Shown here piece after piece: positions 12,078-64,000 of a stretch of 64,000 bases of DNA (position 1 is the stretch's first letter; each line of letters begins with the position of its first letter). The notes beneath the pieces are model-generated. The model made no database searches, was not told the DNA's origin, and was given only the letters and a program-made list of their open reading frames with translations. The stretch is from Flavobacterium haoranii. GTDB taxonomy: Bacteria > Bacteroidota > Bacteroidia > Flavobacteriales > Flavobacteriaceae. The translations under genes and the position numbers were made by a program. The stretch is taken from assembly GCF_009363055.1 (NCBI RefSeq), contig NZ_CP045292.1:992001-1056000 (forward strand). Reading direction: 5' to 3'.

Positions 12078-13808
12078 ATGATTATTCGCCTAGAAAAGAT
12101 TTGGCATCGCAATGCCTATCATATTGGTTTGTTCTTTAGTTATGAATCTGATTTGGTTCAAGCTGTAAAAGCATTTGGTGCAACTTACAGTAGATCGTTA
12201 AATTGTTGGTATTTTCCTTATGATAAAATTTGGTACCAAAAATTCAAGAAAGCCTTTCAGCATATAACTTTAGAAATAAGTACTTCAAATGAAACGGTGG
12301 CCGACAGTAACGTTCGTGAGCTTCCACCCATAGTTTCTCAAAACAAATTTCAGTTAGAATCGCGTGCGATTAAACCTGAACATAAGCCTAAATTAAATTG
12401 GGCTGAAAAACTTCGATTTAAAGTATTAGAACCAGTTGGGAAATATTGGGTTTTTAAAATGCATTATCACGATGTATTTACTCCTGAAATTTTAAAAATA
12501 AAAGGAGTTTTTTGGAATAAAACACAAAAAGTTTTCTTTGCAAAGAGAGTTCCGCTTGTTAAAGAAAAAATTGAAGCTTTATTTGAACAAGAAGGTTTGT
12601 TGCCTGATAATTTTTATTTTAAAGAACAGCATAATCTTGAAGGAACATTGGTACTAAAAATTCATCCTGAAGATTTTCAGTGGATGCAAGTTTATGTACC
12701 ACAACATTTTGCATTGAGAGAGCAAATTAAACGTTTTTCGATGGTGAAATTTAGCAAACCTTTTGGTTGTTTTTTATTACCCGCTGCTCCACAAATTTTG
12801 GAAACATTAGCGATACATTTTGAAGTTTACGGCATTTCGATTGACAATCAGTTGCCCAATAATTATTTAAAAAAGCAACATTTACCTAATAGAAAACGTT
12901 ATTTCCTAGAAAAAGCGAAAACCCAATTATTAGAAGTTGTTCCGTTTAAAGCAGAAGCTTTGATTTCGGAATATGTGGATATGTTACTAGCCATGAATTA
13001 TAGCGAATCGACTTTAAAAACCTATACGCAAGCGTTTATCCAGTTCTTAAGACATTTTGATTTTGAAAGACCCGAAAATTTGGAACAAAAACAAATTGTT
13101 AAGCATTTGGGCGACTTAATGTTACAAGGATTATCGGCAACAAGTGGGCATTCGCTAGTAAATGCATTACATTTTTATTACAAATACATTTTGAAGCGAC
13201 ACGATGTACAATTTGTATTGCCAAGACCAAAAAAAGAAAAGAAATTACCTGTTGTTTTTACAATGGAAGAATGTTTACAAATTTTTAGAGTGGTAGATAA
13301 CCCTAAACACAAATTGTTATTGCTTGTAGGATATGGTTCTGGACTGAGAGTTAGTGAAATTGTAAATTTAAAATGGGAAGATATTTATTTTGAAGAGCAA
13401 AAAATACATATTAAAAATGCCAAAGGTAAAAAAGATAGAATGGTGATGTTGCCCTACTCTATTTCGCAGTTTTTGACTAATTATTCGAAGCTTTACAAAA
13501 AAGGCACTTATGTTTTTGAAGGACAATTTGCAGGCGAACCCTACAGTACAACGACGGTACAAACTGTTATGCGAAATGCGATGCAGAAAGCAGGATTGAA
13601 TAAAAAAGGATCGGTTCATAGTTTACGGCATAGTTTTGCCACACATTTACTTGAAAGTGGAACTGATATAAGATATATTCAACTATTACTGGGACACAAC
13701 GATATAAAAACTACAATGGTTTACACACATGTAAGAAATGAGGCGCGAGATAAAATTATGAGTCCGCTTGATAAAATTGTGGAAATAAATAAAAAAATAG
13801 ATTCGTAA
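12078..13808 (+). CDS. Tyrosine recombinase of the cassette array, with a long N-terminal extension
   Basis: 576 residues. The C-terminal half is a complete XerC/D-like tyrosine recombinase: a SAM-like core-binding domain (about 295-370) and a catalytic domain with Arg424 (GSGLRVSE), the beta-hairpin lysine (GKKDR), His514-Arg517 (HSLRH), His540 (LGHND) and nucleophile Tyr549 (MVYTHV). The tail MSPLDKI recalls the IntI ending, but I see no long insert between the beta-hairpin lysine and HxxR box where integron integrases carry their extra helix. Residues 1-290 are unusual, with two or three related modules ending in an aromatic pattern (NCWYFPYDK about 42-50; KVFFAKR about 156-162). The gene ends 38 bp before the attI-like junction and reads in the same direction as the cassettes. 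Acting on the attC-like sites is inference from position. Confidence 0.85.
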   Translation: MIIRLEKIWHRNAYHIGLFFSYESDLVQAVKAFGATYSRSLNCWYFPYDKIWYQKFKKAFQHITLEISTSNETVADSNVRELPPIVSQNKFQLESRAIKPEHKPKLNWAEKLRFKVLEPVGKYWVFKMHYHDVFTPEILKIKGVFWNKTQKVFFAKRVPLVKEKIEALFEQEGLLPDNFYFKEQHNLEGTLVLKIHPEDFQWMQVYVPQHFALREQIKRFSMVKFSKPFGCFLLPAAPQILETLAIHFEVYGISIDNQLPNNYLKKQHLPNRKRYFLEKAKTQLLEVVPFKAEALISEYVDMLLAMNYSESTLKTYTQAFIQFLRHFDFERPENLEQKQIVKHLGDLMLQGLSATSGHSLVNALHFYYKYILKRHDVQFVLPRPKKEKKLPVVFTMEECLQIFRVVDNPKHKLLLLVGYGSGLRVSEIVNLKWEDIYFEEQKIHIKNAKGKKDRMVMLPYSISQFLTNYSKLYKKGTYVFEGQFAGEPYSTTTVQTVMRNAMQKAGLNKKGSVHSLRHSFATHLLESGTDIRYIQLLLGHNDIKTTMVYTHVRNEARDKIMSPLDKIVEINKKIDS

Positions 13809-13832
13809 TTTAAAAAAAGTTATATATATTTG
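13802..13832 (+). promoter_or_regulatory. Pc-like promoter reading into the cassette array
   Basis: TTCG (13802-13805), 19 bp, then TATATTTG (13825-13832). The -7 element is perfect and the -33 has one mismatch. A transcript would begin about 7 bp further on, just before the first cassette junction, the place expected for a cassette promoter. Confidence 0.55.
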
Positions 13833-13840
13833 AACATATT

Positions 13841-13855
13841 TACTAGTTGTGTGCA
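13841..13855 (+). other. attI-like recombination site (junction with cassette 1)
   Basis: GTTGTGTGC starts at 13846. Its reverse complement gcacacaac opens the palindrome that ends cassette 1 at 17755. Upstream there is no L''/R'' palindrome, only AT-rich DNA after the recombinase gene, so this is the array's fixed end. The upstream bases are taGTT, while every attC in the array has cGTT. Confidence 0.7.
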
Positions 13856-13912
13856 AGCTTAGACAACCGACACCGAGAGCATAAACCGACAGAAAGAGAA
13901 ATAAGAGAATAA

Positions 13913-15655
13913 ATGAATTTGAACTTAAAACTGTTTTATAGAATTGCATTTTGGATTAGTCTGATAGGACTGATTGCTATTATATCGGACTTTGGATTTT
14001 ATCAAAACGACTTTTCTCAACGACTTTTAGACACGTTTTACTTTGTTGTACTTGGAATTGGCTTGATTTCAACTTTTGCCCGATACATACAGGACAGAAA
14101 ATTATTTAAACGAAAGGCGTTTATTTTCGACCTTATATCCGTTGGGTTTACAATGTGGCTGTATTATATGTATCTGTTTGTTGGCGTGCCGTTTGAAACA
14201 GACTTGATACTTGAAAATCCCATTTGGGTAAAAATTGCGGTGCTATTCACGTTCATACGAGAATTTTCAGAACTCAAAATAAATTTCAATAGAACTTTTC
14301 TAAATCCTGCCCAACTTTTCATACTGAGTTTTTTGGTTATCATACTTATAGGCTCATTCTTATTGATTTTACCCAATGCCACTTATGACGGCATTTCTTA
14401 CTTGGACGCATTATTTACTTCAACAAGTGCAGTATGTGTTACAGGATTAGTGGTAGTTGACACAGGCACACATTTTACATTGTTCGGTCAGACCATCATA
14501 ATGATTTTGATACAAGTAGGTGGATTGGGAATTTTGACTTTTGCGAGTTATTTCAGCTATTTCTTTAAAGGTGGCACAACCTACGAAAACCAATTGGCAT
14601 TAAGTGATATGACCAGTTCAAGAAAATTGGGAGAAGTATTCTCAACCTTGAAATACATTATTCTCATTACATTTGGAATAGAGTTTTTTTCAGGAGCTTT
14701 GATTTACACGAGTATTGACTCCAGTAATTTTGCTTCGCAATCTGACCAACTTTTCTTTTCCGCTTTTCACTCAATTTCCGCCTTTTGCAATGCGGGTTTT
14801 TCCACATTGAACGATAGTTTATATGATACAGGTTTTCGCTTTAATTATTATCTGCAATTGGTTGTCATTTTGACGTTTGTCTTAGGCGGTTTGGGCTTCC
14901 CAATTGTTGTAAACATTCTTAAATTCTTAAAATACAAAATAATAACCCTGTTTTCGCCACGCAAAAGCAAATACAGACCTTGGGTGCTAAACTTAAACAG
15001 TCGAATTACATTAATTACAACCCTTTCCATTTCATTAGTCGCTTTTATAGTTTTCTATTTTCTTGAATACAACAACACCTTAGCCGAACACAGTGGATTT
15101 GGAAAAGTAGTTACGGCACTTTTTGGAGCAACCACACCAAGAACGGCAGGGTTTAACACTATAGACACAGCTGCAATGGCGTTTCCAACTTTGATGATGG
15201 TTTTTCTTTTAATGTGGATAGGGGCTTCGCCCCAATCTACAGGTGGTGGTATTAAAACCAGTACTTTTGCAATTGCAACATTGAATATTTTGAGTTTGGC
15301 GAAAGGGAAATCAAGAATTGAAATTTTTAGACGTGAAATAGCTGAAATTTCTGTGCGTAGAGCATTTGCTATAATTTCATTGTCTTTAGCTGTAATCGGC
15401 TTTGCCATAATGTTCATATCAATTTTTGACCCCGAAAAACAATTATTAGACATTGCATTTGAGTGTTTTTCGGCATATAGTACCGTTGGGCTAAGTTTAG
15501 GGATTACAGGAGATTTGAGCAGTGCCAGCAAATTTGTAATAATCGTAGTAATGTTTGTGGGTCGTATCAGTATGTTATCGTTGGTAATTGCGGTATTCAA
15601 GAAAATCAAACATAAAAACTATAGTTACCCAAAAGAAGAAATCACAATAAATTAA
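13913..15655 (+). CDS. TrkH/KtrB-family K+ channel-transporter subunit (cassette 1)
   Basis: 580 residues of integral membrane protein. Four selectivity-filter loops are visible: TSAVCVTGL, SAFCNAGF, TPRTAGF and AYSTVGL, each with the conserved glycine. This is the hallmark of the fourfold pore. The first roughly 125 residues hold extra transmembrane helices and make it longer than usual KtrB (about 450). It imports K+ through the inner membrane with a TrkA/KtrA gating ring, encoded 12 bp downstream. It is the first gene of the array, 66 bp after the attI-like junction, and so closest to the putative Pc promoter. Confidence 0.92.
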   Translation: MNLNLKLFYRIAFWISLIGLIAIISDFGFYQNDFSQRLLDTFYFVVLGIGLISTFARYIQDRKLFKRKAFIFDLISVGFTMWLYYMYLFVGVPFETDLILENPIWVKIAVLFTFIREFSELKINFNRTFLNPAQLFILSFLVIILIGSFLLILPNATYDGISYLDALFTSTSAVCVTGLVVVDTGTHFTLFGQTIIMILIQVGGLGILTFASYFSYFFKGGTTYENQLALSDMTSSRKLGEVFSTLKYIILITFGIEFFSGALIYTSIDSSNFASQSDQLFFSAFHSISAFCNAGFSTLNDSLYDTGFRFNYYLQLVVILTFVLGGLGFPIVVNILKFLKYKIITLFSPRKSKYRPWVLNLNSRITLITTLSISLVAFIVFYFLEYNNTLAEHSGFGKVVTALFGATTPRTAGFNTIDTAAMAFPTLMMVFLLMWIGASPQSTGGGIKTSTFAIATLNILSLAKGKSRIEIFRREIAEISVRRAFAIISLSLAVIGFAIMFISIFDPEKQLLDIAFECFSAYSTVGLSLGITGDLSSASKFVIIVVMFVGRISMLSLVIAVFKKIKHKNYSYPKEEITIN

Positions 15656-15667
15656 AAATATTTAAAG

Positions 15668-16360
15668 ATGAAATATATCATATTCGGACTTGGAAATTTT
15701 GGAGCCTCATTGGCTCAAAAACTCACCGAACAAGGAAACGAAGTAATTGGAATTGATTCCAGTATGGCAAAAGTAGATGCCTTCAAAGAAAAAATTTCAC
15801 ATACGATTTGTATGGACGCAACAGATGAATTTACCGTTTCAGGGCTTCCATTAAAAGAAACAGACATTGTACTTGTTGCCATTGGAGAAGACCAAGGTGC
15901 AAATATTATGGCAACGGCACTATTGAAATATTTTGAAGTAAAAAGGTTAATCAGCCGAGCTATAAATCCACTACACGAAAAAGTTTTACAAGCTATCGGA
16001 GTAGATGAAATTGTACACCCCGAAGAAGAAACAGCCGAAAGGTGGGCTAAAAAACTTTGCCTTAGTAATGTAGTAGATTCATTTGAACTGAATGACGATT
16101 ACAGCATCATTGAAGCAAAAGTTCCGAGCGACTATATTGGAAAAACAGTCCGTGAAGTCGGTTTTCGTAGAGAGTTTGATTTATTGGTGCTAACAATCAT
16201 CAAAAAAGTTGAAGTGAAAAGCATTGTCGGCAAATCCAAAATTGAAACTCAAATACAAGGTGTAGCATCAGCAGACAATCAACTTGAAGCAGACGATATT
16301 TTGGTTCTCTATGGTTCAAACAAGGATTTGCAAATATTCCTAAAACAAAAATTGAGATAA
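15668..16360 (+). CDS. TrkA/KtrA-family K+ uptake regulatory subunit (cassette 1)
   Basis: 230 residues, cytosolic. The N-terminal RCK/TrkA-N domain has the Rossmann motif FGLGNFG at residues 4-10 and the acidic end of strand two (GIDSS). Residues about 140-225 form a TrkA-C domain (DYIGKTVREVGFRREFDLLVLTI). RCK rings bind nucleotides and gate the TrkH/KtrB pore. It is paired with the TrkH gene upstream, and its stop overlaps the following lipoprotein's ATG by one base. Confidence 0.92.
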   Translation: MKYIIFGLGNFGASLAQKLTEQGNEVIGIDSSMAKVDAFKEKISHTICMDATDEFTVSGLPLKETDIVLVAIGEDQGANIMATALLKYFEVKRLISRAINPLHEKVLQAIGVDEIVHPEEETAERWAKKLCLSNVVDSFELNDDYSIIEAKVPSDYIGKTVREVGFRREFDLLVLTIIKKVEVKSIVGKSKIETQIQGVASADNQLEADDILVLYGSNKDLQIFLKQKLR

Positions 16361-16620
16361 TGAAGAAAGTAGCGACAATAATCTTGCTTTTGGGTTTGTT
16401 CACATCTTGTAATTTACCAGACGATAAAACAGAGAATGACAATTTTGAAAAGAGTTCGATAGAACAAGAAATTAAAAATATTCCTGAAAATAAATTGTCT
16501 GTAATTGTCATTGATGACTGCGAATACATCATTTACAAGGAAGACAAAGACGCAAATTCTTCTTATGGTTTTATGGCTCATAAGGGTAATTGTTCAAACC
16601 CATTTCATCAATGCAAGTAA
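16360..16620 (+). CDS. Small lipoprotein (cassette 1)
   Basis: 86 residues. The signal peptide ends in a lipobox (LFTSC, Cys about 16), then an acidic stretch and a compact cysteine-containing core (VIVIDDCEYIIYKEDKD ... GYGFMAHKGNC-like), similar to short DUF-type lipoproteins of Bacteroidota. Function is unknown. It overlaps the TrkA gene by one base and the porin gene by 10 bp, so it belongs to the same translationally coupled unit. Confidence 0.75.
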   Translation: MKKVATIILLLGLFTSCNLPDDKTENDNFEKSSIEQEIKNIPENKLSVIVIDDCEYIIYKEDKDANSSYGFMAHKGNCSNPFHQCK

Positions 16621-17717
16621 GAAGTTATTTGATATTACTTTTTGCCTGTGTGAGCAACATTGTTCTGGCTCAAAATGACAGCATTTGGCATCAAAAACCA
16701 AATTTGAATGTTTCAGGTTTTTTAGATGTGTTTTATGTTTATGATTTCAACCAACCACAAGGCACAGAAAGACAACCATTTCTATTTAATCACAACCGAC
16801 ATAACGAGTTTAACCTGAATTTAGGATTTGTAAAACTTGGCTTGGAACATTCAAAATATCGGGCAAATTTGGCTTTACAAACAGGTACATATTCAAACGA
16901 CAACTATTCAGCCGAACCCGGACTATTGAAAAATATCTTTGAAGCAAACGTTGGTTTATCGCTTAACAAGAAAAATAATCTTTGGATAGATGCAGGAGTT
17001 TTTGCCTCATACATTGGTTTTGAAAGTGCTATTTCCACCGACAATTTGACAATGACACGTTCTATATTGGCTGAAAACTCCCCTTATTTTTTATCAGGAG
17101 CAAAATTAACCTACAACCCAAACGACAAATTGGAAATAGCAGGATTAATTGTTAACGGTTGGCAACGTATCCAGCGACTTGAAGGAAATTCTTTACCCTC
17201 ATTTGGCACTCAAATAAATTTTAGTCCGACAGAAAAAGTAACTTTTAATTGGAGTACGTTCATTGGCACAGACGACCCAGACACGACAAGGAGAATGCGT
17301 TATTTCAACAATTTTTACGGACAGTTTCAATTCACAGACAAATTTGGCTTAATCGCAGGTTTTGACATTGGGACACAACAGAGAGCCAAGAATAGTGCAG
17401 TTTACGACCTTTGGTTTAGTCCAGTTCTTATTGGGAATTTTTCCATAAACAAGACTTGGAAAACCGCAATTAGAGCAGAATATTACCAAGACGAAACAGG
17501 AATCATCATCTCAACAGGCACACCAAACGGATTTAAAACAACAGGACTTTCATTAAACTTTGACTACTCACCGACAGAAAACATTATTTGCAGACTTGAA
17601 GGACGTTGGTTAAACAGCAGAGACCAAATTTTTGAGACTAAAACCGCTTTGACAGACAACAATTTTATCATAGCGACATCAATAGCAATCAGATTTTCAG
17701 AGACAATAAAGAAGTAA
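16611..17717 (+). CDS. Outer-membrane porin-like beta-barrel (cassette 1)
   Basis: 368 residues from the ATG at 16611, where a normal signal peptide begins (cleavage near VLAQN); a longer TTG-started frame exists. The mature part has the alternating amphipathic strands of a porin, such as NLNVSGFLDVFYVYDF, and ends in a C-terminal aromatic strand (FIIATSIAIRFSE). It resembles Bacteroidota porins that begin with an FLDVFY-type strand. With TrkH, TrkA and a lipoprotein in one cassette, an outer-membrane route for K+ or a counter-ion is a reasonable guess. Confidence 0.78.
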   Translation: MQVRSYLILLFACVSNIVLAQNDSIWHQKPNLNVSGFLDVFYVYDFNQPQGTERQPFLFNHNRHNEFNLNLGFVKLGLEHSKYRANLALQTGTYSNDNYSAEPGLLKNIFEANVGLSLNKKNNLWIDAGVFASYIGFESAISTDNLTMTRSILAENSPYFLSGAKLTYNPNDKLEIAGLIVNGWQRIQRLEGNSLPSFGTQINFSPTEKVTFNWSTFIGTDDPDTTRRMRYFNNFYGQFQFTDKFGLIAGFDIGTQQRAKNSAVYDLWFSPVLIGNFSINKTWKTAIRAEYYQDETGIIISTGTPNGFKTTGLSLNFDYSPTENIICRLEGRWLNSRDQIFETKTALTDNNFIIATSIAIRFSETIKK

Positions 17718-17754
17718 AATGCAATTCTATAAAACAGACGGAAGAAGAAAGCCA

Positions 17755-17891
17755 GCACACAACAGCGTGTATGAAAAATAGCGGGTTTAGTGGTATATCA
17801 AAGGTAAGTGCTTTTTATGAACTTTTGTACCAAACTGAAAGTGAAGTGCTTTTAAGTCCGCTACTTCTCATACACGCAAAACGTTATAGCC
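17755..17891 (+). repeat. attC of cassette 1
   Basis: R'' gcacacaac is complementary to the first bases of cassette 1 (gttgtgtgc, 13846). The inner arms gcgtgtatg / catacacgc and tagcgg / ccgcta pair. Junction G^TT at 17883. Confidence 0.85.
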
Positions 17892-17897
17892 AATGGT

Positions 17898-19034
17898 ATG
17901 ACATCAGAACCGCAAACAAAAATGACAAATATGGGACAACAATTTAGACAAATTAGATTAGGTCTTTTAATGATTATTACTTCAATATTATTGACTTCTT
18001 GTCAATTAGGACGCTTTGTTTTTTACAACTTTGCTGACATAAAAGACCATAAAAAATTTCAGTCAAGACCACTAACTGCTAATGCATCGTCTTTCCATTT
18101 TCAAACCACAAACAAAGGTAAATTTCCAAAAGAGTTAAATAATATACCTTTTGACAAATATCTGGAAGATAATAAAACAGTCGCTTTTATAATTATTAAA
18201 AACGACACAATCCAATATGAAAAATATTTCAAAGGTTATGATAAAGAAAGTATTGTTCCTTCTTTCTCGATGGCAAAATCTGTTACATCAATTTTGATTG
18301 GTTGTGCCATTGATGAAGGCTTAATAAAGTCTGTTGACGAGCCGATTACAAACTATATTCCCGAATTGAAAAAAAACGGATTTGACAAAGTGACTATTAA
18401 ACACCTTTTGCAAATGACATCTGGAATTAAGTTTAATGAAAGCTATGTAAACCCATTTGGCGATGCAGCTTCATTTTATTATGGACTTAATCTTAGAAAA
18501 GAAATAGGAAAAATGAAGCTAAAAACTGAACCTGGTAAAAAGTTTGAATACGTAAGTGGTAACACACAACTTTTAGGTTTAGTTTTAGAACGTTCATTAA
18601 AAGAAAAAACAATCACTTCATACTTGCAAGAAAAAATATGGACACCTCTTGAAATGGAATATGACGCATCTTGGAGCATTGACAGAAAAAAGAATGGACT
18701 TGAGAAAACATTTTGCTGTTTAAACGCAAGAGCAAGAGACTTTGCCAAAATAGGACGACTATATAAAAACAAAGGCAACTGGAACGGAAAACAAATTGTA
18801 TCTCAAAAATGGGTTGAAGAATCTACAAAACTCGACACATCCGAAGGAAGTGTAAACTTTTATCAATATCAATGGTGGTTGCCGAAACCAAATGAAGATT
18901 TTATGGCGGAAGGTATTTTAGGACAATTTGTTTATGTGAACCCATCAAAAGACTTAATTATAGTGAGACTTGGAAAGAAAGAAGGTAAGGCAGACTGGTG
19001 GACAATTTTCACCTCATTAGCAAAAGCATATTAA
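17898..19034 (+). CDS. Serine hydrolase of the class C beta-lactamase/penicillin-binding fold, lipoprotein (cassette 2)
   Basis: 378 residues. Met12 may be the true start, because it begins a clean lipoprotein signal (IITSILLTSC). The SxxK nucleophile motif is FSMAKS near residue 120, a YxG/N motif is YVSGN, and the fold's C-terminal strand WWLP...GILGQFVYV follows. The family includes esterases, D-aminopeptidases and carboxypeptidases, and antibiotic hydrolysis cannot be inferred. It is the only gene of cassette 2, starting 14 bp after the junction. Confidence 0.85.
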   Translation: MTSEPQTKMTNMGQQFRQIRLGLLMIITSILLTSCQLGRFVFYNFADIKDHKKFQSRPLTANASSFHFQTTNKGKFPKELNNIPFDKYLEDNKTVAFIIIKNDTIQYEKYFKGYDKESIVPSFSMAKSVTSILIGCAIDEGLIKSVDEPITNYIPELKKNGFDKVTIKHLLQMTSGIKFNESYVNPFGDAASFYYGLNLRKEIGKMKLKTEPGKKFEYVSGNTQLLGLVLERSLKEKTITSYLQEKIWTPLEMEYDASWSIDRKKNGLEKTFCCLNARARDFAKIGRLYKNKGNWNGKQIVSQKWVEESTKLDTSEGSVNFYQYQWWLPKPNEDFMAEGILGQFVYVNPSKDLIIVRLGKKEGKADWWTIFTSLAKAY

Positions 19035-19051
19035 AAATAGTAAGAACCACT

Positions 19052-19187
19052 GGCTATAACACGGGTTTTGCGTCAGGCGGGGTGACGTGCAAACTTCAAA
19101 CTTTGTGCTACTATTCAAGTGCAGTGCTAGTTGACAGTTTTGCACTCCGAAACCCGCCCGAACGCAAAGCCCGAAACCGTTATCTGC
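19052..19187 (+). repeat. attC of cassette 2 (family G)
   Basis: R'' ggctataac matches the cassette 2 start gttatagcc (17883). Arms gggttttgcgt / aacgcaaagccc pair. Junction at 19179. The same palindrome type recurs at 60720. Confidence 0.85.
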
Positions 19188-19287
19188 AAGCATATCCGAA
19201 CCCATTTCATAGAAGGAATTTCACAAAAAAACTATCTAAGAATTTAAATTATAGTAATTTTATCTTAACAAAAAGTAATAACAAACA

Positions 19288-19617
19288 ATGAAATATTTAT
19301 ATTTAGCATTAGCGATTGTTCTTGAAGTTTTAGGTTCAAGTTTTATGAAAGCATCTGACGGATTTTCAAAACTTTTACCCACGACAATAACAATAATAGC
19401 ATATATTGCTTGCTTTTTCTTCCTTTCTCAAGCATTAAAATTAATACCTTTAGGAATTGCTTATGCGATTTGGGGAGGTTTAGGAATTGTCTTAACTGCA
19501 TTGATTTCAGTAATTATCTTTAAACAATCTTTGGATTTACCAGCAATTATTGGAATTATTTTAATTGTTGCAGGTGTTTTTGTTATGAACTTTTTCTCTA
19601 AATCTTCAACACACTAA
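19288..19617 (+). CDS. SMR-family small multidrug efflux transporter (cassette 3)
   Basis: 109 residues, the standard family length, with four transmembrane helices. The membrane-embedded glutamate is in LAIVLEVLGSSFMKAS near residue 13, and the loop motif PLGIAYAIWGGLGIV is the SMR signature. These antiporters exchange protons for quaternary ammonium compounds or guanidinium as antiparallel dimers. It is the sole gene of cassette 3, with a leader of about 108 bp after the junction. SMR (qac) genes are also well-known passengers of clinical integrons. Confidence 0.92.
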   Translation: MKYLYLALAIVLEVLGSSFMKASDGFSKLLPTTITIIAYIACFFFLSQALKLIPLGIAYAIWGGLGIVLTALISVIIFKQSLDLPAIIGIILIVAGVFVMNFFSKSSTH

Positions 19618-19624
19618 AAAATGC

Positions 19625-19826
19625 CTGCAGATAACATGGGTTTTGCAAGATGCGGGGTTGAAGTAAATCTCAGAAAATTTGTAGAAAATACCCGCAAACA
19701 ACTTTTCCATTTTTTAGTTTTTTCGTAATTTTAAAAAATGGAAAAAGTTTTTGCTAGAGATTGGTTCTCCTCTCCACTTTCGGTTGCAGTAGTCCGCACC
19801 TCGCAAAGCCCTTTTCCGTTATGGGC
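19625..19826 (+). repeat. attC of cassette 3 (long variant)
   Basis: R'' tgcagataac matches the cassette 3 start gttatctgca (19179). Arms gggttttgc / gcaaagccc pair. It is about 200 bp because the loop holds a further hairpin (ccatttttta ... taaaaaatgg). Junction at 19818. Confidence 0.82.
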
Positions 19827-55831: not shown

Positions 55832-55931
55832 TAAAAAGAATTAGTTGTGCTAAGCATTTAATAGAATTTGGCGAAAATTAAAATTTTATGAGAGATTAAA
55901 TTCTGGAAATTCTAAACTGTAAAAAAACAAC

Positions 55932-56069: not shown

Positions 56070-56403
56070 CAGCTTATTCGTGATGTTCTTCTTTAAATTT
56101 AAAATCTAGTATTTGAACTAAAGATTTTAAAATTGTTGCGTGAATTTTTAACTTGAATTACGAACTTAAAAAAACTTTACGCTGACTTTTGATAAACTAT
56201 GATTACTGAATTGCGTTGTGTTGAATTTTGACTAACGTTGCGGAAAAGCGTTGTAAATAATAAAGCCGAAACTACAACAACAGTTTACACTCAGCGCAAG
56301 GTTCTCGCCTATTTGCTGAAAAAATTCGTGCCGAATTTTTTCTAATCGGATTTTTTGTTATCTTTGGTTCATAAGGTTTGCGCCGAAGTGTAAGCCGTGA
56401 CCG
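56062..56403 (+). other. ORF-less cassette, family II, copy 3 (cassette 44)
   Basis: 342 bp, starting TTGTAGTTCAGC like cassettes 13 and 27 and ending in a family F attC. The body is more diverged, with repeated words (ttgcgtgaattttt; tacgctgacttttg). No credible reading frame. Confidence 0.75.
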
Positions 56404-56411
56404 TTAGCAGT
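56270..56411 (+). repeat. attC of cassette 44 (family F)
   Basis: R'' aactacaac matches gttgtagtt (56061). -7 element TATCTTTG at 56359-56366. Junction at 56403. Confidence 0.87.
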
Positions 56412-56435
56412 AATAATAAAAAACATACACAATTA

Positions 56436-57230
56436 ATGAGAAAATATTTTATTTATAATGGTGAAACTGAAGTTGGACCATTTGATTTTGAACAATTAAA
56501 ATCCTTACAAATAAAAAGTGACACGCCAATTTGGTATGAAGGATTAGAAAATTGGACAACTGTAGATAAAATAGATGAACTTAAAACAATAATTGTTTCT
56601 ACTCCACCGAAATTTGAAAATACAAAACAAAATTTTTCAAATCCACCTAAATTTTCAAATTACGAAAAACCAACGAAAAAGAATAACGTTTTACGAAACG
56701 TTTTAATTGGTTTAGGTATTTTACTAATTAGTGTTTTGGTTATTTCTGCCATTAACTCTGAACCAAGTGAAGCAGAATTAGAATTAATGGATATTAAGGC
56801 TGACTCTATAATTCAAAAATCGGAGCGTGAAAGAATAAATTCTGAAAAAACAATAAAGAATAGAAATTACAGAAATAATTGGCAAGATTTCTTAACAGTA
56901 ACTACAAATAAATATTCTTATTACGAAATTGGTGGAATTGAGAATCTGCAAATTATTGTTACAAATAAAACTGAATACAAAATAGACGAATTTAAAGTAA
57001 ATGTTTGTTATGTTATTGACAATGGAGATTGTTATAAAAATGAGCAAATAACAATTTACAATATACCAGCAAAATCACAAAAAAGTGAACCTGCACCAAA
57101 TTCGAATAGAGGAAAACGTGTTGACCTTTTTGTTGAAGAAATTTATAGCGATGAATTAAATTTTGGATATGCTCCAGGAAATTGGTCGAAAAATTCTGAT
57201 GACCCATTTTTTACAAAGGAAAAACGATAA
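56436..57230 (+). CDS. GYF_2-domain membrane protein (cassette 45)
   Basis: 264 residues from the ATG at 56436. Residues 1-50 form a GYF_2 domain (YFIYNGETEVGPFDFEQLKSLQIKSDTPIWYEGLENWTTV), a protein-interaction module for proline-rich ligands. A linker and one transmembrane helix (VLIGLGILLISVLVISAI, about 92-110) follow, then a soluble domain with two cysteines (NVCYVIDNGDCYK). Topology: the GYF domain is cytosolic and the C-terminal domain periplasmic. Target unknown. The only gene of its cassette. Confidence 0.8.
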   Translation: MRKYFIYNGETEVGPFDFEQLKSLQIKSDTPIWYEGLENWTTVDKIDELKTIIVSTPPKFENTKQNFSNPPKFSNYEKPTKKNNVLRNVLIGLGILLISVLVISAINSEPSEAELELMDIKADSIIQKSERERINSEKTIKNRNYRNNWQDFLTVTTNKYSYYEIGGIENLQIIVTNKTEYKIDEFKVNVCYVIDNGDCYKNEQITIYNIPAKSQKSEPAPNSNRGKRVDLFVEEIYSDELNFGYAPGNWSKNSDDPFFTKEKR

Positions 57231-57235
57231 ATTAC

Positions 57236-57373
57236 TACTGCTAACAACGGTTACAAGTAATGGCTAGTTTAGGAATATTCCGAAAATTCTCCGAATTTTC
57301 TAAAATAAGTTTATATTTGTTATAGCTTGGTGTTGATTTACGCCACTACTTGTAGCCACATACCGTTGTACAC
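57236..57373 (+). repeat. attC of cassette 45 (family C)
   Basis: R'' tactgctaac matches gttagcagta (56403), 10 of 10 bases. -7 element TATATTTG at 57312-57319. Junction at 57365. Confidence 0.88.
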
Positions 57374-57415
57374 CATTTGAGCAACACGCTCGAAAAGAAA
57401 AATGAATTAAACATT

Positions 57416-58426
57416 ATGAAAGAAAATAGCATACCGAAAATTTATCAGATTACAGGATTGATTGCATTCATCTATTCAATATTATTAGTTGTATATGCAA
57501 TTTATAATCAATTTTTCTATGTAGATGGTACTTGGTTTCACGGATTTACAGCAAATGGATTTGCAGTTTTGAGCGGATTAATTTGGTTTGGAATTCTATT
57601 TATTTTTAAATGGTTTTTAAACAGAGTTCTTTATTATTCAAAATCTAACTTACTTATAAATGCTTATCTGATTTTTTTAGGAATTTCAACCTTATCTACA
57701 GCAACAGTTTTGTATAAATCAATAAAAGTTTACTCATCACTCGAAGAAGGTGATAAATTCAACTCTTTGACTGCTTTTGCTACTTCATCAATTTCAGGTG
57801 CAATATTTCTTTTTATCTCAAGCTTTGCAATTATTCTAATAAGTGTACTGTTAGGAAATCAAATAAGAAAAATAGATATAGTTCAAAAACAATTATTTCA
57901 AATACTTGGCTTTACATTTATTGGTTATGGTGTTGTTTCTGTATTAGGAACATTTGGACTATTAGGAACTGACGTTTTTCAATTCTTAACAAAAGCTGGC
58001 TTATCAATTTTAATCGGACTAATTATTAAAAAAGTATTTAGTATGGACTATTCAGACCTAATTACTTTGACCGATTTTGAAAATCGAACAGAAAAATCAG
58101 CACCTAAACCTAAACCTGAACAAAGAAAAGAATATAAAACGCCTGAAATAACAACTACTTATAAAAATACGGTTGTCAAAGAAAAACCGAAAGAAACCTT
58201 TTCACACAATGAGGAATTACCAAAAATAAATTTAGAAGAACTTGAAGACAAAGATTTAATTCTTTCGTATTTCGAAAATTTACCTGAAGTAGAATTAAAC
58301 CGATTGGAAGCTTTAATACAGAATAAATACAAACAGGTTTTGACAAAAGAACAAAAACAGAATTTAGTTTTACATTATATTTCAGAAAAAAAATTATACG
58401 ACCATCAACGATTTTTACCAAAATAA
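57416..58426 (+). CDS. Polytopic membrane protein of unknown function (cassette 46)
   Basis: 336 residues from the ATG at 57416; TTG 57377 would add 13. Six hydrophobic segments in the first 215 residues (IYQITGLIAFIYSILLVVYAIY; VLSGLIWFGILFIFKWFL; AIFLFISSFAIILISVLLG), then a charged cytosolic tail with KPKPEQ repeats and a helical C-terminus (LPEVELNRLEALIQNKYKQVLTKEQK). No family recognised. The tail may bind a partner protein. Confidence 0.7.
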   Translation: MKENSIPKIYQITGLIAFIYSILLVVYAIYNQFFYVDGTWFHGFTANGFAVLSGLIWFGILFIFKWFLNRVLYYSKSNLLINAYLIFLGISTLSTATVLYKSIKVYSSLEEGDKFNSLTAFATSSISGAIFLFISSFAIILISVLLGNQIRKIDIVQKQLFQILGFTFIGYGVVSVLGTFGLLGTDVFQFLTKAGLSILIGLIIKKVFSMDYSDLITLTDFENRTEKSAPKPKPEQRKEYKTPEITTTYKNTVVKEKPKETFSHNEELPKINLEELEDKDLILSYFENLPEVELNRLEALIQNKYKQVLTKEQKQNLVLHYISEKKLYDHQRFLPK

Positions 58427-58440
58427 CTGAATAAAAAAAC

Positions 58441-58576
58441 GGTGTACAACAATGGCTATAAGTAATTGCTGGTTCTCGCCTACTTCTGAAAATCCTCGCG
58501 GATTTTCAGTTTGGTGTGTACTTGCAAACTTAAGTGCTAACCCACGCAACTACTCATAGCCGAGACCGTTGTGTGT
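58441..58576 (+). repeat. attC of cassette 46 (family B)
   Basis: R'' ggtgtacaac matches gttgtacacc (57365), 10 of 10 bases. Junction at 58568. Confidence 0.88.
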
Positions 58577-58597
58577 AAGCTAAAAAAAGCATCGTAA

Positions 58598-59092
58598 ATG
58601 ACAAAAGAAAGTGCTGAAAAAATTGGAATTCGAGTCGCGACAATTTCTGTGTCAATTGGAATTGTTTTAGCTTATTTGATTCCGACTTGGATATTTTGGG
58701 ACGGAACTTCAAAATCATTCACGTGGATTTTTGATATTGGATTTTGGTTTAATGTGATTATGGGAATCGCATTCTTTTACGGAATGGGATACTTTTTCGG
58801 TAAAAAAGCAGGAATTGAAATTCTCGTAAAAAAACGGAATTATATTCTAACTGGAATAAAATACGGAATTCTGACTTTGATTACAGCTACTTTTTTGACA
58901 AGTCTAATCGGATTTTTCCAAGAGGGAATTGACAATATTGGCGGATTTAGCAATCCTTTTTACGATTACATTTTTAAACCAATGTATTGGATTTTAATGT
59001 ATGGAATTATTCCAGCTATTATTGTTGGAATTTTATTCGGACTGACAATAAAACTAAATGGAAATAAAAAGCCTACACACAACAATGTATAA
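58598..59092 (+). CDS. Polytopic membrane protein, 164 residues (cassette 47)
   Basis: Four hydrophobic segments (VATISVSIGIVLAYLIPTWI; FWFNVIMGIAFFYGMGYFFG; ILTLITATFLTSLIGF; ILMYGIIPAIIVGILFGL). No family recognised. The C-terminal residues THNNV and the stop TAA come from the attC. Confidence 0.7.
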   Translation: MTKESAEKIGIRVATISVSIGIVLAYLIPTWIFWDGTSKSFTWIFDIGFWFNVIMGIAFFYGMGYFFGKKAGIEILVKKRNYILTGIKYGILTLITATFLTSLIGFFQEGIDNIGGFSNPFYDYIFKPMYWILMYGIIPAIIVGILFGLTIKLNGNKKPTHNNV

Positions 59093-59211
59093 CCGCAATT
59101 ACGGCGGATTCGACTACGTCCGAATCCACTCGGAATTGCTAACGCCAGTTCTTAACCGAAAAACATTATCTTTAATCCCGTAACTGACGGTTATACGAGA
59201 CCGTTAGCAGT
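59074..59211 (+). repeat. attC of cassette 47 (family A)
   Basis: R'' tacacacaac matches gttgtgtgta (58568), 10 of 10 bases. Junction at 59203. Confidence 0.88.
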
Positions 59212-59223
59212 AATTTAAAACAA

Positions 59224-59856
59224 ATGAATATATTTAAGAAAATATTCAAGAAGACTCAAATAAAGGAAATTGATTCTCAAGAAAATAAAACGGAGACACT
59301 TCAAATTAAGCATATTCCATTTCCTGAATTTGCTATTGAGGGTATTGAACAAAATGACTTAATTAAAATTTTAAATTTTGACATTGAAGATACTTTGGAT
59401 TTAGAAGATGCTGAACGTTTTATTTGGCCATACTGGAATAAACCAAATCAAGAAAATAAAATAAGAACTATAATAAGCGAAAAATTAGATAATTGGATTT
59501 TCATTTATGGATACAATTATAATCCAATTGAAATAATAAAAATGCTAATTAAACATTCAAATTATAGAATTAATTATTATTCTGCAGATTCACAGACTAG
59601 TGATTATGAATGGATTATTGCAAATAATGGAAAAATAATTCGTGAATTTTATAGCTGTTGGAATATCGAAATCAATAAAGGTGAACCTTTAACAGAACTA
59701 GAAAATAAATTCGTTAAGAGTTTTAGCAACAAGGAATTTGTTTTTGGCGAAGAAGTTTGTATATCAATTTATAATCACACTTGTGGTTTAGATTTTAAAA
59801 AATATACAGCAGAAACAAAATTCAAAGTTGGAACCATACCTATAACTTCAAACTGA
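59224..59856 (+). CDS. Unknown cytosolic protein, 210 residues (cassette 48)
   Basis: No signal peptide. A short basic N-terminus (MNIFKKIFKKTQIKEID) is shared in style with the products at 60023 and 63121. The body is alpha/beta with aromatic patches (DAERFIWPYWNKPNQENK; DNWIFIYGYNYNPIEIIKML; YEWIIANNGKIIREFYSCW). It recalls SMI1/KNR4- or SUKH-neighbour immunity proteins in composition, but I assign no family. Confidence 0.68.
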   Translation: MNIFKKIFKKTQIKEIDSQENKTETLQIKHIPFPEFAIEGIEQNDLIKILNFDIEDTLDLEDAERFIWPYWNKPNQENKIRTIISEKLDNWIFIYGYNYNPIEIIKMLIKHSNYRINYYSADSQTSDYEWIIANNGKIIREFYSCWNIEINKGEPLTELENKFVKSFSNKEFVFGEEVCISIYNHTCGLDFKKYTAETKFKVGTIPITSN

Positions 59857-59866
59857 TTAGAAAAAC

Positions 59867-60004
59867 TACTGCTAACAACGGTTAAAGTAAATGGCTTGGT
59901 CAAGAATTTACCGAAAATTCTCCGAATTTTCTAAATTTTGTCTATTTTTGGGTTGGCTTGGTTTTGGCTCACGCCACTTTCTTTAGCCGCGGACCGTTAG
60001 TGGC
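59867..60004 (+). repeat. attC of cassette 48 (family D)
   Basis: R'' tactgctaac matches gttagcagta (59203), 10 of 10 bases. -7 element TATTTTTG at 59943-59950. Junction at 59996. Confidence 0.88.
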
Positions 60005-60022
60005 AACTCTAAAAAGACGATA

Positions 60023-60709
60023 GTGAAACTATTCAACTTCATAAAAAGACAACCTAAAATAGACTTCTCGTCTGAGGAGACTATAAGACGTTTGGTTGAT
60101 TATATGCCTAAATTTTATAGAACACACAGACAGTTTATTAATTGCGTTGAATTTTTAGAGAACAGAGAATGGGACCTTGCACTTGACAGCTTAATTGAAC
60201 TTGCTGACGAAACGGAACATTATTTTTCTGAAGACTTTTGGCGTGGGCTTGCTGACTCTGCCGAAAAAATGAACTTAACAGACAAAGCAAATTATTGTAG
60301 AAAGCAAATCAAGCGAAACGCAGAAGATATAAAATCAACGACACCATTTGGTTGGACTACTATAAAATTTGACGACACACATTTTCAACATCACATCTCG
60401 GAGAAACTTAAAGAAGAATGGGCGACAGACAGACGTGAGAAAGATAAAGTTCAAGAATTACTAACAAAAGAAGGAGTTCATTTAAAATCACACGGACGTA
60501 GCGGATTTTTATACATTACTGACAATGGGAGAAATGCCGAAGTTGAGTTTGAATTAGGAATGAATGGACTTATCCTCTATTTCAGTAGCTTGAAAAATTG
60601 GTCATTACCGACAAAGCAAACACTGACGGTTGATGATAAGCAGAAAGTAAGAAATGATATTATTAACTGGGCGACAAAGACAAAAAATGCAATCGAATTT
60701 GACGACTGA
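60023..60709 (+). CDS. Unknown cytosolic protein, 228 residues (cassette 49)
   Basis: GTG start, 26 bp after the junction. The N-terminal half is helical (RRLVDYMPKFYRTHRQFINCVEFLENREWDLALDSLIELADE ... FWRGLADSAEKMNLTDKANYCRKQIKRN), a TPR-like pair of helices similar to proteins often found with immunity genes. The second half is a strand-rich domain (GVHLKSHGRSGFLYITDNGRNAEVEFELG). No catalytic motif seen. The codon choice is a little more C-rich than that of its neighbours, as in cassettes 1-5. Confidence 0.68.
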   Translation: MKLFNFIKRQPKIDFSSEETIRRLVDYMPKFYRTHRQFINCVEFLENREWDLALDSLIELADETEHYFSEDFWRGLADSAEKMNLTDKANYCRKQIKRNAEDIKSTTPFGWTTIKFDDTHFQHHISEKLKEEWATDRREKDKVQELLTKEGVHLKSHGRSGFLYITDNGRNAEVEFELGMNGLILYFSSLKNWSLPTKQTLTVDDKQKVRNDIINWATKTKNAIEFDD

Positions 60710-60719
60710 AAGAAGAGCA

Positions 60720-60855
60720 GCCACTAACACGGGTTTTGCGTCAGGCGGGCTGACGTGCAAACATTGAGCTTAGTTCTTCGAATAAACTTTGGTAATAAAT
60801 TGAAACTTTGTGCTCCGAAACCCGCCCGAACGCAAAGCCCGAAAACGTTGTGGTT
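60720..60855 (+). repeat. attC of cassette 49 (family G)
   Basis: R'' gccactaac matches gttagtggc (59996). The body is close to the attC at 19052, 41 kb away. Junction at 60847. Confidence 0.87.
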
Positions 60856-60879
60856 AATGTTGAAAAACCAAGAAACTTA

Positions 60880-61674
60880 ATGAATAAAACAATATTTGAG
60901 ATTACCAAAATGGACTGTCCTTCAGAGGAAAATCTAATTCGAATGAAATTGGACGGAATTTCAAGTATTGCGAATTTGGACTTTGACATTCCCAACCGAA
61001 AATTGACCGTTTTTCACATCGGAGAAACTGACCAAATTGAAAAATCAGTTCTTGAACTAAATTTAGGCGGAAAGAAAATATCGACTGAACAAACCGAACA
61101 AACAGAATTTAATGAAAATGCAAACCAAAAAAAACTACTCTGGTCTGTACTTGCCATAAATTTTGCGTTTTTCATAATTGAAATGACAACAGGAATAATC
61201 TCAAAATCAATGGGATTGGTTGCCGACAGTTTAGATATGCTTGCGGACAGTTTCGTTTACGGAATTAGCTTGTTTGCGGTTGGCGGAACAGTAATAAAGA
61301 AAAAACGGATTGCCAAAATTGCTGGATATTTTCAAATAACACTTGCAATTATTGGATTTGTAGAAGTTTTAAGGAGATTTTTCGGAGACGAGAAATTACC
61401 CAACTTTTCGACAATGATTATAGTTTCAATTTTCGCACTTATTGCAAACGGAATTTGTCTTTACATTTTACAAAAATCAAAAAGTAAAGAAGAGGCACAT
61501 ATGAAAGCAAGTATGATTTTCACATCAAACGATGTGATTATAAATTTAGGAGTAATAACAGCTGGACTTTTGGTAAACTGGTTGAGTTCAAGCAAACCTG
61601 ATTTGATTATCGGAACAATAGTTTTTGTTTTGGTAATTCAAGGAGCTTTTAGAATTTTAAAATTGAGTAAATAA
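60880..61674 (+). CDS. Cation diffusion facilitator with an N-terminal HMA-like domain (cassette 50)
   Basis: 264 residues from the ATG at 60880. Residues 1-70 resemble a heavy-metal-associated fold (FEITKMDCPSEENLIRMKLDGI; a single Cys in MDCPSEE). Residues about 85-262 form a CDF transporter with the metal site in SMGLVADSLDMLADSFVYG (Asp residues spaced by four) and the partner site MKASMIFTSNDVIINLG. Such proteins export Zn2+, Co2+ or similar from the cytosol against protons. The protein is shorter than usual CDF exporters (about 300) and lacks the large C-terminal domain. A single-gene cassette. Confidence 0.85.
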   Translation: MNKTIFEITKMDCPSEENLIRMKLDGISSIANLDFDIPNRKLTVFHIGETDQIEKSVLELNLGGKKISTEQTEQTEFNENANQKKLLWSVLAINFAFFIIEMTTGIISKSMGLVADSLDMLADSFVYGISLFAVGGTVIKKKRIAKIAGYFQITLAIIGFVEVLRRFFGDEKLPNFSTMIIVSIFALIANGICLYILQKSKSKEEAHMKASMIFTSNDVIINLGVITAGLLVNWLSSSKPDLIIGTIVFVLVIQGAFRILKLSK

Positions 61675-61685
61675 ATAAAAAACAC

Positions 61686-61821
61686 TAACCACAACAATGG
61701 CTATAAGTAATTGCTTGTTCTCGTCTACTTCTGAAAATCCTCGCGGATTTTCAGTTTGGTGTATATTTGCAAAGTTAAGTACTAACCCACGCAACTACTC
61801 ATAGCCGAGACCGTTACAAGT
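61686..61821 (+). repeat. attC of cassette 50 (family B)
   Basis: R'' taaccacaac matches gttgtggtta (60847), 10 of 10 bases. Unlike other family B sites (tgtacttg), the loop here has TATATTTG at 61762-61769. Junction at 61813. Confidence 0.88.
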
Positions 61822-61956
61822 AACCTTATGAAAATTGGAACGCAAAAAATAGTAGAAATTTTAACAAAATGTACAGAAAATCTGTAACCAAAATAAAATA
61901 AAAAATAATATTTTAGCGTTTTAACATTTGTAATATTTTTAATCGTGTTAATTTAT

Positions 61957-62559
61957 ATGATTAAACACTTTTCAATTAAGCAAGGAAGTATTTTAACTTC
62001 CTTGCTACTTTTCTCTTTCATATTATTAACTTCATGTGTTCAGGGTAGTTTCAAAGGGTTATATAGTTATTATGACAGGTCAATAAAAGAAAAACCAGAA
62101 ATTTTTATTAATACTAAGAATTTAGACACAATCAATGGTAAATTTTCTAAATTAGAAAACTATGTTTTTATAATTAATGGTAACGATTTAAAAAAATGTT
62201 TAAAAGAAAACGACAAATCCTTCATATATATTTGGGGAGCAAAATGTAGTAGTAAAATCTGTTATCCTTTAGAATTAATAGACAATCATTGTAAAAAAAA
62301 TAATGTTTCTCTTTTTATAGTTGCTGAATATTATGATTCAGAAAACATGTCATATGATTATGAACTAGACAAAAATATATTGGCTATAGATACTAAACAT
62401 TACAATACAAATTTAACTTCTAAATACTTAAATTTATTTTTAAAGGACATTGATAATAATTTAAATTATGATAATATTCCTGAAAGATATTTATATTTTG
62501 AAAAAGATAAATATATTAAAAGTTATGAATCGATATATGATTATAATGATGAAAAATAA
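61957..62559 (+). CDS. Lipoprotein with a thioredoxin-like flavour (cassette 51)
   Basis: 200 residues from the ATG at 61957. Signal peptide with lipobox LTSCVQG. The core FIYIWGAKCSSKICYPLELIDNHCKKNNVSLFIVAEYYD looks like a thioredoxin-type strand-helix (WGAKCSSKIC; the pair is CSSKIC, not CxxC), so redox activity is doubtful. A 140-bp AT-rich leader precedes the gene; I see no other gene in it. Its stop overlaps the next gene by 14 bp. Confidence 0.7.
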   Translation: MIKHFSIKQGSILTSLLLFSFILLTSCVQGSFKGLYSYYDRSIKEKPEIFINTKNLDTINGKFSKLENYVFIINGNDLKKCLKENDKSFIYIWGAKCSSKICYPLELIDNHCKKNNVSLFIVAEYYDSENMSYDYELDKNILAIDTKHYNTNLTSKYLNLFLKDIDNNLNYDNIPERYLYFEKDKYIKSYESIYDYNDEK

Positions 62560-62950
62560 ATTCTTATTTTTTCTTCTATTAATTCCTACAATTAATTACT
62601 CGCAATCCGATGTTGATAAAATCTTAAAAGGTGGAGAAATAATTATTAATGGGTTATCATTTCTTAAAAAAGATAAATCAGAAGTCAAAGAAAACAATTC
62701 TAAAATAATTGAAAGTATTTGTATAAAAAACAAACTTACAGACAAAATAACTTTTATCATTGTTGGAAAAGACGAGGAAGATAATACTATCAAAAAAGAA
62801 ATGGTCATTCAAAAAGACGGAAAAGAATGCGTTTTTGACATTCCAAAAGGCATTTATACATATGAAATTGTTTTAGCCAACAAAGAAATTTATAAAAAAG
62901 GTGAATACAAATTCAATGACGAAATTACTATAACAGTGAAGCCCGAATAA
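62546..62950 (+). CDS. Secreted protein of unknown function (cassette 51)
   Basis: 134 residues from the ATG at 62546 (62549 also possible), where a signal peptide begins (FFLLLIPTINYSQSD). Longer frames run back into the upstream gene and are unlikely. The mature domain is a small beta-sandwich (SICIKNKLTDKITFIIVGKDEEDNTIKKEMVIQKDGKECVFDIPKGIYTYEIVL). No family recognised. Translationally coupled to the lipoprotein upstream. Confidence 0.7.
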   Translation: MMKNKFLFFLLLIPTINYSQSDVDKILKGGEIIINGLSFLKKDKSEVKENNSKIIESICIKNKLTDKITFIIVGKDEEDNTIKKEMVIQKDGKECVFDIPKGIYTYEIVLANKEIYKKGEYKFNDEITITVKPE

Positions 62951-62955
62951 AAGGC

Positions 62956-63093
62956 TACTTGTAACATTGCATATATTCAATAGCGGTTTTTGGGTAACAC
63001 CAAAAGCCGTTTTTGCACTTGTAATGTAATGTAAAAAACAAATAATATAGTAAATTTGTCCGCTACTAGAGTATATGCGGAACCGTTAGCTGC
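62956..63093 (+). repeat. attC of cassette 51
   Basis: R'' tacttgtaac matches gttacaagta (61813), 10 of 10 bases. Arms gcatatattcaatagcgg / ccgctactagagtatatgc pair. -7 element TAAATTTG at 63051-63058. Junction at 63085. Confidence 0.87.
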
Positions 63094-63120
63094 TATATTA
63101 CCCAACAGAACGAATAAACA

Positions 63121-63669
63121 ATGTTTAAAAAAATCTTTTCAATATTTAGTAAAAAACTGGAACTTGAAAATTTTGACGCTCTGCATCAAATTGAAAATAT
63201 TGGAGAGAGAAAAAAGATTGATTTATTAATTGGAGATAAAATTCTGGAAATAAAAACCCATTTTGAATATAGAAAAATAAATGATTGGCTTGATACAAGC
63301 ATTGCGTTCATACGTTTGGAGCGAAATGGAATAATTTGTTTTCCATATTCTGGAGATGAGGATTTTGAAAATGTGAATATTGAAATTAAAGCTGAACCAA
63401 TTCTTGAGAAATTCCAAAACATAATTTACGGAACCACAATTGAGGATATATATTATATTGTTGATGGCAATGAAGAATTTGATGAAATGCAAATGGGATA
63501 TTTTCTATTAAATAACGATTATATTTTAGAAGAAAACAGAATGTCCCCATCTGGAATTGGTGGAGCGGACATGTTTTGCAAAACTTCAGCAGAATTTGAA
63601 AAAGAAATACTTGAAAATAATATTTCAATTTATTCAGTAAAAAATAAAGCTATAAAATACAGCAGCTAA
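63121..63669 (+). CDS. Unknown cytosolic protein, 182 residues (cassette 52)
   Basis: No signal peptide; the basic N-terminus is MFKKIFSIFSKK. Alpha/beta with acidic C-terminal half (YYIVDGNEEFDEMQMGYFLLNNDYILEENRMSPSGIGGADMFC). No family recognised. The last codons and the stop (agc agc TAA C) come from R''. ATG 35 bp after the junction. Confidence 0.7.
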   Translation: MFKKIFSIFSKKLELENFDALHQIENIGERKKIDLLIGDKILEIKTHFEYRKINDWLDTSIAFIRLERNGIICFPYSGDEDFENVNIEIKAEPILEKFQNIIYGTTIEDIYYIVDGNEEFDEMQMGYFLLNNDYILEENRMSPSGIGGADMFCKTSAEFEKEILENNISIYSVKNKAIKYSS

Positions 63670-63830
63670 CAGCGGTTTTGTGAAAGCGGGGTTTTAGGAT
63701 TTATCGGTAATGGTCAGTGTTTGCACTTCGCTCCTATTTTTGAGCTTTTTTCTTTCAATCTTTTCGGTATATTTGTAAACATCAGTAACAAAAATCCCCG
63801 CCTTCACAAAGCCGGCGGGACGTTATAAGC
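63662..63830 (+). repeat. attC of cassette 52
   Basis: R'' gcagctaac matches gttagctgc (63085). Arms ttttgtgaaagcgggg / ccccgccttcacaaa pair. Two -7 elements: TATTTTTG at 63735-63742 and TATATTTG at 63768-63775. Junction at 63822. Confidence 0.87.
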
Positions 63831-63837
63831 TATTTTA

Positions 63838-64000
63838 TGAAAAACTTGATAATCAAATTATTAAGTTTGTTTTTTTCAATTTGTTTTTTAAGTTGTAATC
63901 CAAATAAAAAAATTGATCGAGAAAACGAACCAACAATCTACAATATTCAAAGTGATGATTCTGAAATGAATCAAGCAATTGAAAATGCAAAACAAACACT
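63838..64000 (+). CDS. Lipoprotein, 5' part (cassette 53, cut by window end)
   Basis: The frame is open from the ATG at 63838 to the edge (54 codons). Signal peptide with lipobox (FSICFLSCNPNKK) and an acidic, asparagine-rich start of the mature protein. The cassette begins gttataagc at 63822, and its end, which should read gcttataac, lies beyond the window. This predicts what the next attC should start with. Confidence 0.75.

Follow-up and report, generated by a model that had tools for sequence, protein, structure and literature searches.

An integron-like cassette array beside a tyrosine recombinase outside the IntI family in Flavobacterium haoranii

Can genes be collected and exchanged as cassettes in the manner of an integron by a recombinase that is not IntI? 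The question is raised by a 64,000-nucleotide stretch of the one-contig, 2.87-Mb genome of Flavobacterium haoranii (positions 992001-1056000 of NZ_CP045292.1, hereafter the window), in which a tyrosine recombinase gene is followed by a long series of similarly built units. Comparison of unit ends, recombinase trees and related genomes makes it very probable that this is an integron-like array whose adjoining, non-IntI recombinase inserts and excises circular cassettes, with the action of the enzyme deduced from DNA sequence.

Unit borders, self-complementary ends and covarying site arms

The recombinase gene (12078..13808, + strand) encodes a 576-residue protein and ends 37 nucleotides (nt) before the first unit. 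From there, 52 complete cassettes fill the window (13846..63822, + strand), the first G lying at 13846 and the last site ending at 63822. A 53rd cassette is cut by the window end (63822..64000, + strand); with flanking DNA included, 54 complete units reach up to 65323, where a 55th starts whose own end matches its start at 10 of 10 positions and whose site is cut short near 66.5 kb, the approximate limit of the array. The original prediction had assigned the whole of 12078..64000 to the array; its placement directly after the recombinase stands, while 12078 is the recombinase and the array proper starts at 13846. The predicted 52 units, each with a GTT(A/G) start and a palindromic end, agree with our count: GTT(A/G) opens 55/55 units, and a covariance model trained on 49 sites of the array recovered the full set of 54, every one on the + strand. 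The site list itself was hand-picked from scan candidates, with 54 rows kept and those off the regular pattern dropped. The model found no further sites in the window at E 0.1, and Rfam at gathering cut-offs reported tRNA only. Genes had been placed on one strand throughout, which holds for 52 of 54 units, where the longest ATG frame is on the + strand, and not for the remaining two; in nine units no ATG frame reaches 80 amino acids. The canonical integron site core is GTTRRRY / RYYYAAC. Base 5 of the unit start is T or C in 31/55, so that the core here is GTTR rather than GTTRRRY, as had been proposed.

The site coordinates, given from AAC to GTT, derive from the analysis of unit borders and end pairing and from the covariance model. 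On the + strand, the sites of cassettes 1 to 13 lie at 17761..17885, 19058..19181, 19633..19820 (cassette 3, with a long loop), 20455..20578, 21213..21336, 21851..21975, 23881..24004, 26893..27015, 28691..28812, 29619..29743, 30261..30386, 30903..31027 and 31274..31401; those of cassettes 14 to 26 at 32001..32126, 32644..32768, 33286..33410, 34143..34265, 35370..35494, 36623..36747, 37008..37136, 37824..37948, 38621..38746, 40347..40472, 40733..40862, 41291..41418 and 42037..42159; those of cassettes 27 to 39 at 42390..42519, 43194..43323, 43934..44063, 45009..45133, 45866..45990, 46251..46380, 47536..47667, 48258..48382, 49095..49219, 49781..49905, 50344..50469, 50730..50857 and 52096..52218; and those of cassettes 40 to 52 at 53224..53347, 54747..54871, 55480..55601, 55939..56063, 56276..56405, 57243..57367, 58448..58570, 59081..59205, 59874..59998, 60726..60849, 61693..61815, 62963..63087 and 63668..63824 (cassette 52, again with a long loop). 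Most sites are 119-129 nt long (typically ~122 nt), the two long-loop exceptions measuring 185 and 154 nt.

The first and last 14 nt of each unit are complementary to each other on either side of a constant A.C at position 11, and since the start of a unit pairs with its own end, the outer (R) arm of a site closes only in an excised circle. Own start and own end paired at 354 of 432 positions over 8 bases, compared with a mean of 146 and a maximum of 192 in 10,000 shuffles; on average, 6.56 of 8 bases paired with the own end versus 2.67 with the next unit. Among the 49 distinct units, pairing along the R arm is seen in 46-49 at positions 4-9, in 30 at position 10 and in 46, 46 and 43 at positions 12-14, with chance level reached from position 15 on; at position 11, 43 units have A facing C. 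The L arm comprises 14 pairs, 13 of them with changes on both sides (RNAalifold), and mirrors the R arm in its order of ten positions, an A.C at position 11 (47/49) and then four pairs. The top-strand A.C corresponds to T.G on the bottom strand. L-arm mismatches were A.C in 74 cases versus G.T in 32, position 11 accounting for 47 of the 74, and position 2 followed the opposite trend, with T.G in 29/49. DNA folding of circle-form sites predicted a lower energy for the bottom strand in 50/52 (mean -30.3 versus -26.5 kcal/mol for the top strand; the average difference in random stretches is -0.5). In 51/52, the circle form was predicted to be lower in energy than the array form.

The same arrangement recurs outside the window. 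Across 14 other stretches of the genus Flavobacterium, all 140 units have A at position 11, opposite C in 124, and position 15 pairs too (115/140); in seven loci of other families, position 11 is A in 23 of 23 units, with A.C in 21. We considered own-end pairing over more than 7 nt as a distinguishing mark and rejected it, having found similar lengths in IntI-side units. This comparison relied on a thin canonical control, ten IntI stretches and one class 1 integron scanned three times for canonical sites. The first two returned no chained units and one pair, visible from both strands; the third gave eight chains in which 9-14 nt paired, five of which overlap at a single locus, against none in one shuffle of each. 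Pairing length alone thus does not set the array apart, and it is the fixed A at position 11 that may distinguish its sites from those of IntI. One IntI locus (L379, genome G183) shows an own-end pairing of 13 nt in its units, exceeding the textbook core.

Many site loops also contain TAnnTTTG, the sequence of the Bacteroidota -7 box, facing the next unit in a promoter-like way (for example in the site at 45009-45133). The motif occurs on the + strand in 28/52 distinct sites and on the - strand in 5 (shuffled mean 3.7, maximum 9), as well as in 73/165 sites elsewhere in the genus (shuffled mean 12.9, maximum 19) and in only 4/37 sites from other families (shuffled 2.7), counts that are not independent because the sites are related copies. 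No -33 element was present at the expected distance in the site loops, and we keep a promoter in the loop as a lead.

Insertion point, probable cassette exchange and distribution among genomes

Between the recombinase gene and the first cassette lies an attI-like insertion point, ...GAACATATTTACTA^GTT (13809..13848, + strand). In the close relative G397, 96% identity extends over 3,180 bp and ends at 13848, with the joint at GTT; past this unchanged joint, G397 carries another first cassette, a unit of the cassette-32 type, in place of unit 1. The comparison with close strains suggested by the original prediction thus gave an array that differs by whole cassettes, with the break at G^TT. Such an exchange between genomes is consistent with circle excision and with attI x attC recombination. 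Cassette 50 (60847..61812, + strand), encoding a cation-efflux protein, is present whole in G397 (97%) and in genome G022 (89%) among other neighbours, in G397 next to a 24/32-type unit. The search of the array in G397 covered all but 12.2 kb (32001-44199).

Copies within the array tell a similar story of whole units. Units 4 and 5 are identical, units 12/15 (99.5%) and 11/16 (98.6%) form two pairs of copies whose order is swapped, and units 20, 24, 32 and 38 are dispersed copies, 93-97.5% alike. Likeness between copies begins and stops at most 12 bases from the unit borders, except for 11/16, where it extends 31 and 16 bases beyond the border on the two sides. The four dispersed units, starting at 36745, 40470, 45988 and 50467, are 388-390 nt long without a long reading frame; cassette 32 (45988..46377, + strand) is one of them, and the type is repeated in G397, once in first position.

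The layout of recombinase, insertion point and array is found in several families of Bacteroidota. At least one site was detected at E 0.001 in 97/121 genomes of the genus, with 29 candidates scored per genome. Stretches bearing a recombinase contained sites in 26/37 cases in total: 14/18 for recombinases of the genus, a set partly selected for having sites, and 12/19 for other Bacteroidota recombinases below the IntI cut-off (locus L115 being weak). Of the loci with both recombinase and sites, 25 were analysed (L115 was left out); in every one of them the first site's own-start lies beside the recombinase (tied with a distant candidate in L149), between 16 nt inside and 371 nt beyond the end of the recombinase frame. 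The original prediction had remarked that the recombinase reads in the same direction as the cassettes, which is so in the window and in 24/25 loci; in L130 it reads away from the array. Across 26 junctions, the exact sequence RTATAAACGA ahead of the first GTT was found in only three, a TAT-rich run (TAT within 12 nt) directly before it in 22 (shuffled mean 9, maximum 17), and an upstream stem of at least 5 in 12 (shuffled mean 4.9, maximum 10).

By contrast, the site model had no matches in 30 stretches around 20 IntI genes. Among the named loci, which are the 80 best of 589 matching stretches, 19 contained sites, all from Bacteroidota by title (among them Winogradskyella, Algibacter, Algoriphagus, Alkalitalea and Rufibacter). 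The non-Bacteroidota loci among these 80 had no site by the model, and none was found either in 31 of them scanned without a model, an approach that also misses many true units. Searches of open-access PubMed Central, preprints excluded, listed no article describing a system of this kind, which may have been reported elsewhere. On plasmid NZ_CP041688.1 (L150) of Chryseobacterium, a related recombinase is followed on its own strand by five sites. Two viral contigs, L315 (IMGVR_UViG_3300043411_001575) and L374 (IMGVR_UViG_3300020045_007874), carry four and six sites of the same unit kind, respectively; in L315, a contig of 170 kb, the units are divergent from a recombinase match of 41% identity. 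A second small cluster, of four sites (L008:10971-14903), lies ~28 kb downstream of where the array ends and close to another match to a tyrosine recombinase.

The recombinase in relation to IntI and Xer

The closest named relatives of the window recombinase are a protein from a Flavobacteriaceae metagenome-assembled genome (94%) and a partial Flavobacterium haoranii protein (96% over 63% of the length). Its best NCBIfam match is IntI, with 215 bits and below the cut-off of 265, ahead of XerA (196.5), XerC (173, cut-off 335) and XerD (170, cut-off 330), where it likewise remains below the family cut-offs; the best solved relative by sequence is IntI of Vibrio cholerae. The window protein has the catalytic residues R-K-H-R-H-Y, which are conserved in 58-61 of the 61 array-type rows (its own included), two rows being gapped at Tyr. 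PMC9668308 describes the IntI-specific additional domain as defining for integron integrases, and PMC8138268 describes it as essential for integron function. It had been predicted to be lacking before HxxR, and we found it absent in 61/61 array-type proteins (the window protein and 60 relatives) and present in 21/21 IntI: the catalytic Lys and the first His lie 61-69 residues apart in the array type, 72 in eight Xer and 106 in 21/21 IntI.

A tree of 90 rows, from which five that were long or odd (L003, L151, L108, L128_578 and L100) had been removed, set apart the array enzymes (85/83), IntI (100/100) and Xer (100/100), each by a branch of its own. With these rows kept, IntI falls inside the array recombinases; we do not claim this nesting because it disappears once the five rows are dropped. 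A wider quick tree with other phyla added gave one group of 16 IntI-type rows (100) without the window recombinase and one Xer group (99), the remainder being poorly resolved, with site-less non-Bacteroidota rows among or beside the array recombinases. Row L034, first labelled as array, proved Xer-like and was relabelled, and XerA is absent from the trees. The window recombinase lies outside both the IntI and the Xer clade, and the placement within an XerD-type clade that would have spoken for an ordinary recombinase was not seen. These results favor the original either-or proposal of a deeply divergent lineage of integrons or a system that arose independently; the choice between the two depends on the tree, the array group standing beside IntI (85/83) without the five rows and enclosing it with them.

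The N-terminal extension of about 290 residues noticed in the original prediction spans residues 1-286 (12078..12935, + strand) and comprises one clear module (residues 5-56, 39.8 bits) and two weak repeats of it (130-153 and 205-245). The module weakly resembles the XPB-DRD and HARP domains. Neither HARP (PF07443; SMARCAL1) nor the XPB damage-recognition domain nor the MutS mismatch domain gives a sequence match above the Pfam cut-off, unrelated eIF1-like folds score as high, and any kinship to these domains would be tentative.

The recombinase probably inserts circular cassettes at the G^TT point adjoining its own gene and probably excises them through the predicted bottom-strand hairpin sites. 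We infer that strand exchange is carried out by this recombinase, that a single strand is cut and that circles exist. The longer 14-bp arms and the N-terminal module or modules probably compensate for the missing IntI insert; that the modules bind distorted or hairpin DNA is a guess from the weak fold matches.

Alternative explanations and cassette content

The system shares with integrons (IntI, attI, attC and cassettes) the side-by-side placement of recombinase and insertion point, cassettes that all point one way, imperfect hairpin sites whose centre is unpaired, exchange at G^TT, a bottom strand favored by prediction and an outer arm closed in the circle. It differs in a recombinase outside IntI, without the IntI insert and with N-terminal modules, that reads into the array; in a GTTR core with bases 5-9 variable; and in sites of mostly ~122 nt with 14-bp arms and the fixed A. 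Thus, of the features that define integrons, an insertion point adjoining the recombinase gene and an array of cassettes that share one strand and all close with a structured site are present, as is, by prediction, bottom-strand folding, whereas the IntI insert and the GTTRRRY core are lacking. One explanation would be a canonical integron whose IntI has drifted far within the same enzyme family. The best NCBIfam and structural matches, the insertion point and hairpin sites, the few IntI-side units with 9-14 nt of own-end pairing and the tree that nests IntI among the array recombinases would fit this account. We nevertheless consider it improbable, given a score under the IntI cut-off, the missing insert in every array-type row, an IntI clade of its own at 100/100, the divergent core and the lack of matches to the site model around 20 IntI genes.

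A role for the host is harder still to reconcile with the data. Cassettes could be moved by XerC/XerD or by homologous recombination between repeats, with the neighbouring recombinase incidental, as might be suspected from genomes that have sites and no such recombinase detected, and from site copies similar enough for homologous exchange. The array recombinase does share the catalytic fold and residues, and the lack of an IntI insert, with XerC/XerD/XerA, but it is below their family cut-offs, the Bacteroidota Xer rows form a separate clade (99-100), and it differs from them in its cassette arrays and N-terminal modules. Moreover, the same recombinase group stands beside the first cassette in the 25 analysed loci, from several families, the G397 joint is at G^TT, copies end at unit borders, and the unit-specific end pairing points to a circle-like step, which together render host-driven movement very unlikely. 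A static tandem repeat family, or dispersed repeats resembling miniature inverted-repeat transposable elements and lacking site-specific movement, would explain why the sites fall into sequence families; this seems scarcely credible, as unit content differs, whole units recur with other neighbours in the array and in other genomes, and the G397 junction already speaks against it.

We favor, in its place, a system that appears to work like an integron and to stand beside the IntI family rather than inside it. A more far-reaching version, which we put forward only tentatively and would not yet back over its negation, is a second, parallel integron class of Bacteroidota, in which an insert-less recombinase reads single-strand hairpins via HARP/DRD-like modules and two dyad-symmetric 14-bp arms, IntI having possibly arisen from its stock by gaining the insert. 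If the favored reading is correct, the integron principle does not need the special domain of IntI, Flavobacteriia and other Bacteroidota hold a large pool of cassettes that IntI-based searches would miss, and the origin of integrons becomes testable.

The system would probably let these bacteria exchange whole genes. We profiled 30 unit proteins picked from the longer frames, of which 16 had a Pfam match at 0.001 and 14 had none. The matches include TrkH, TrkA, a beta-lactamase-family protein (PF00144), LysR, an S41 peptidase, a cation-efflux protein and outer-membrane domains. Unit 8 additionally contains a pair resembling an insertion sequence, with helix-turn-helix and rve domains (24076-25325).

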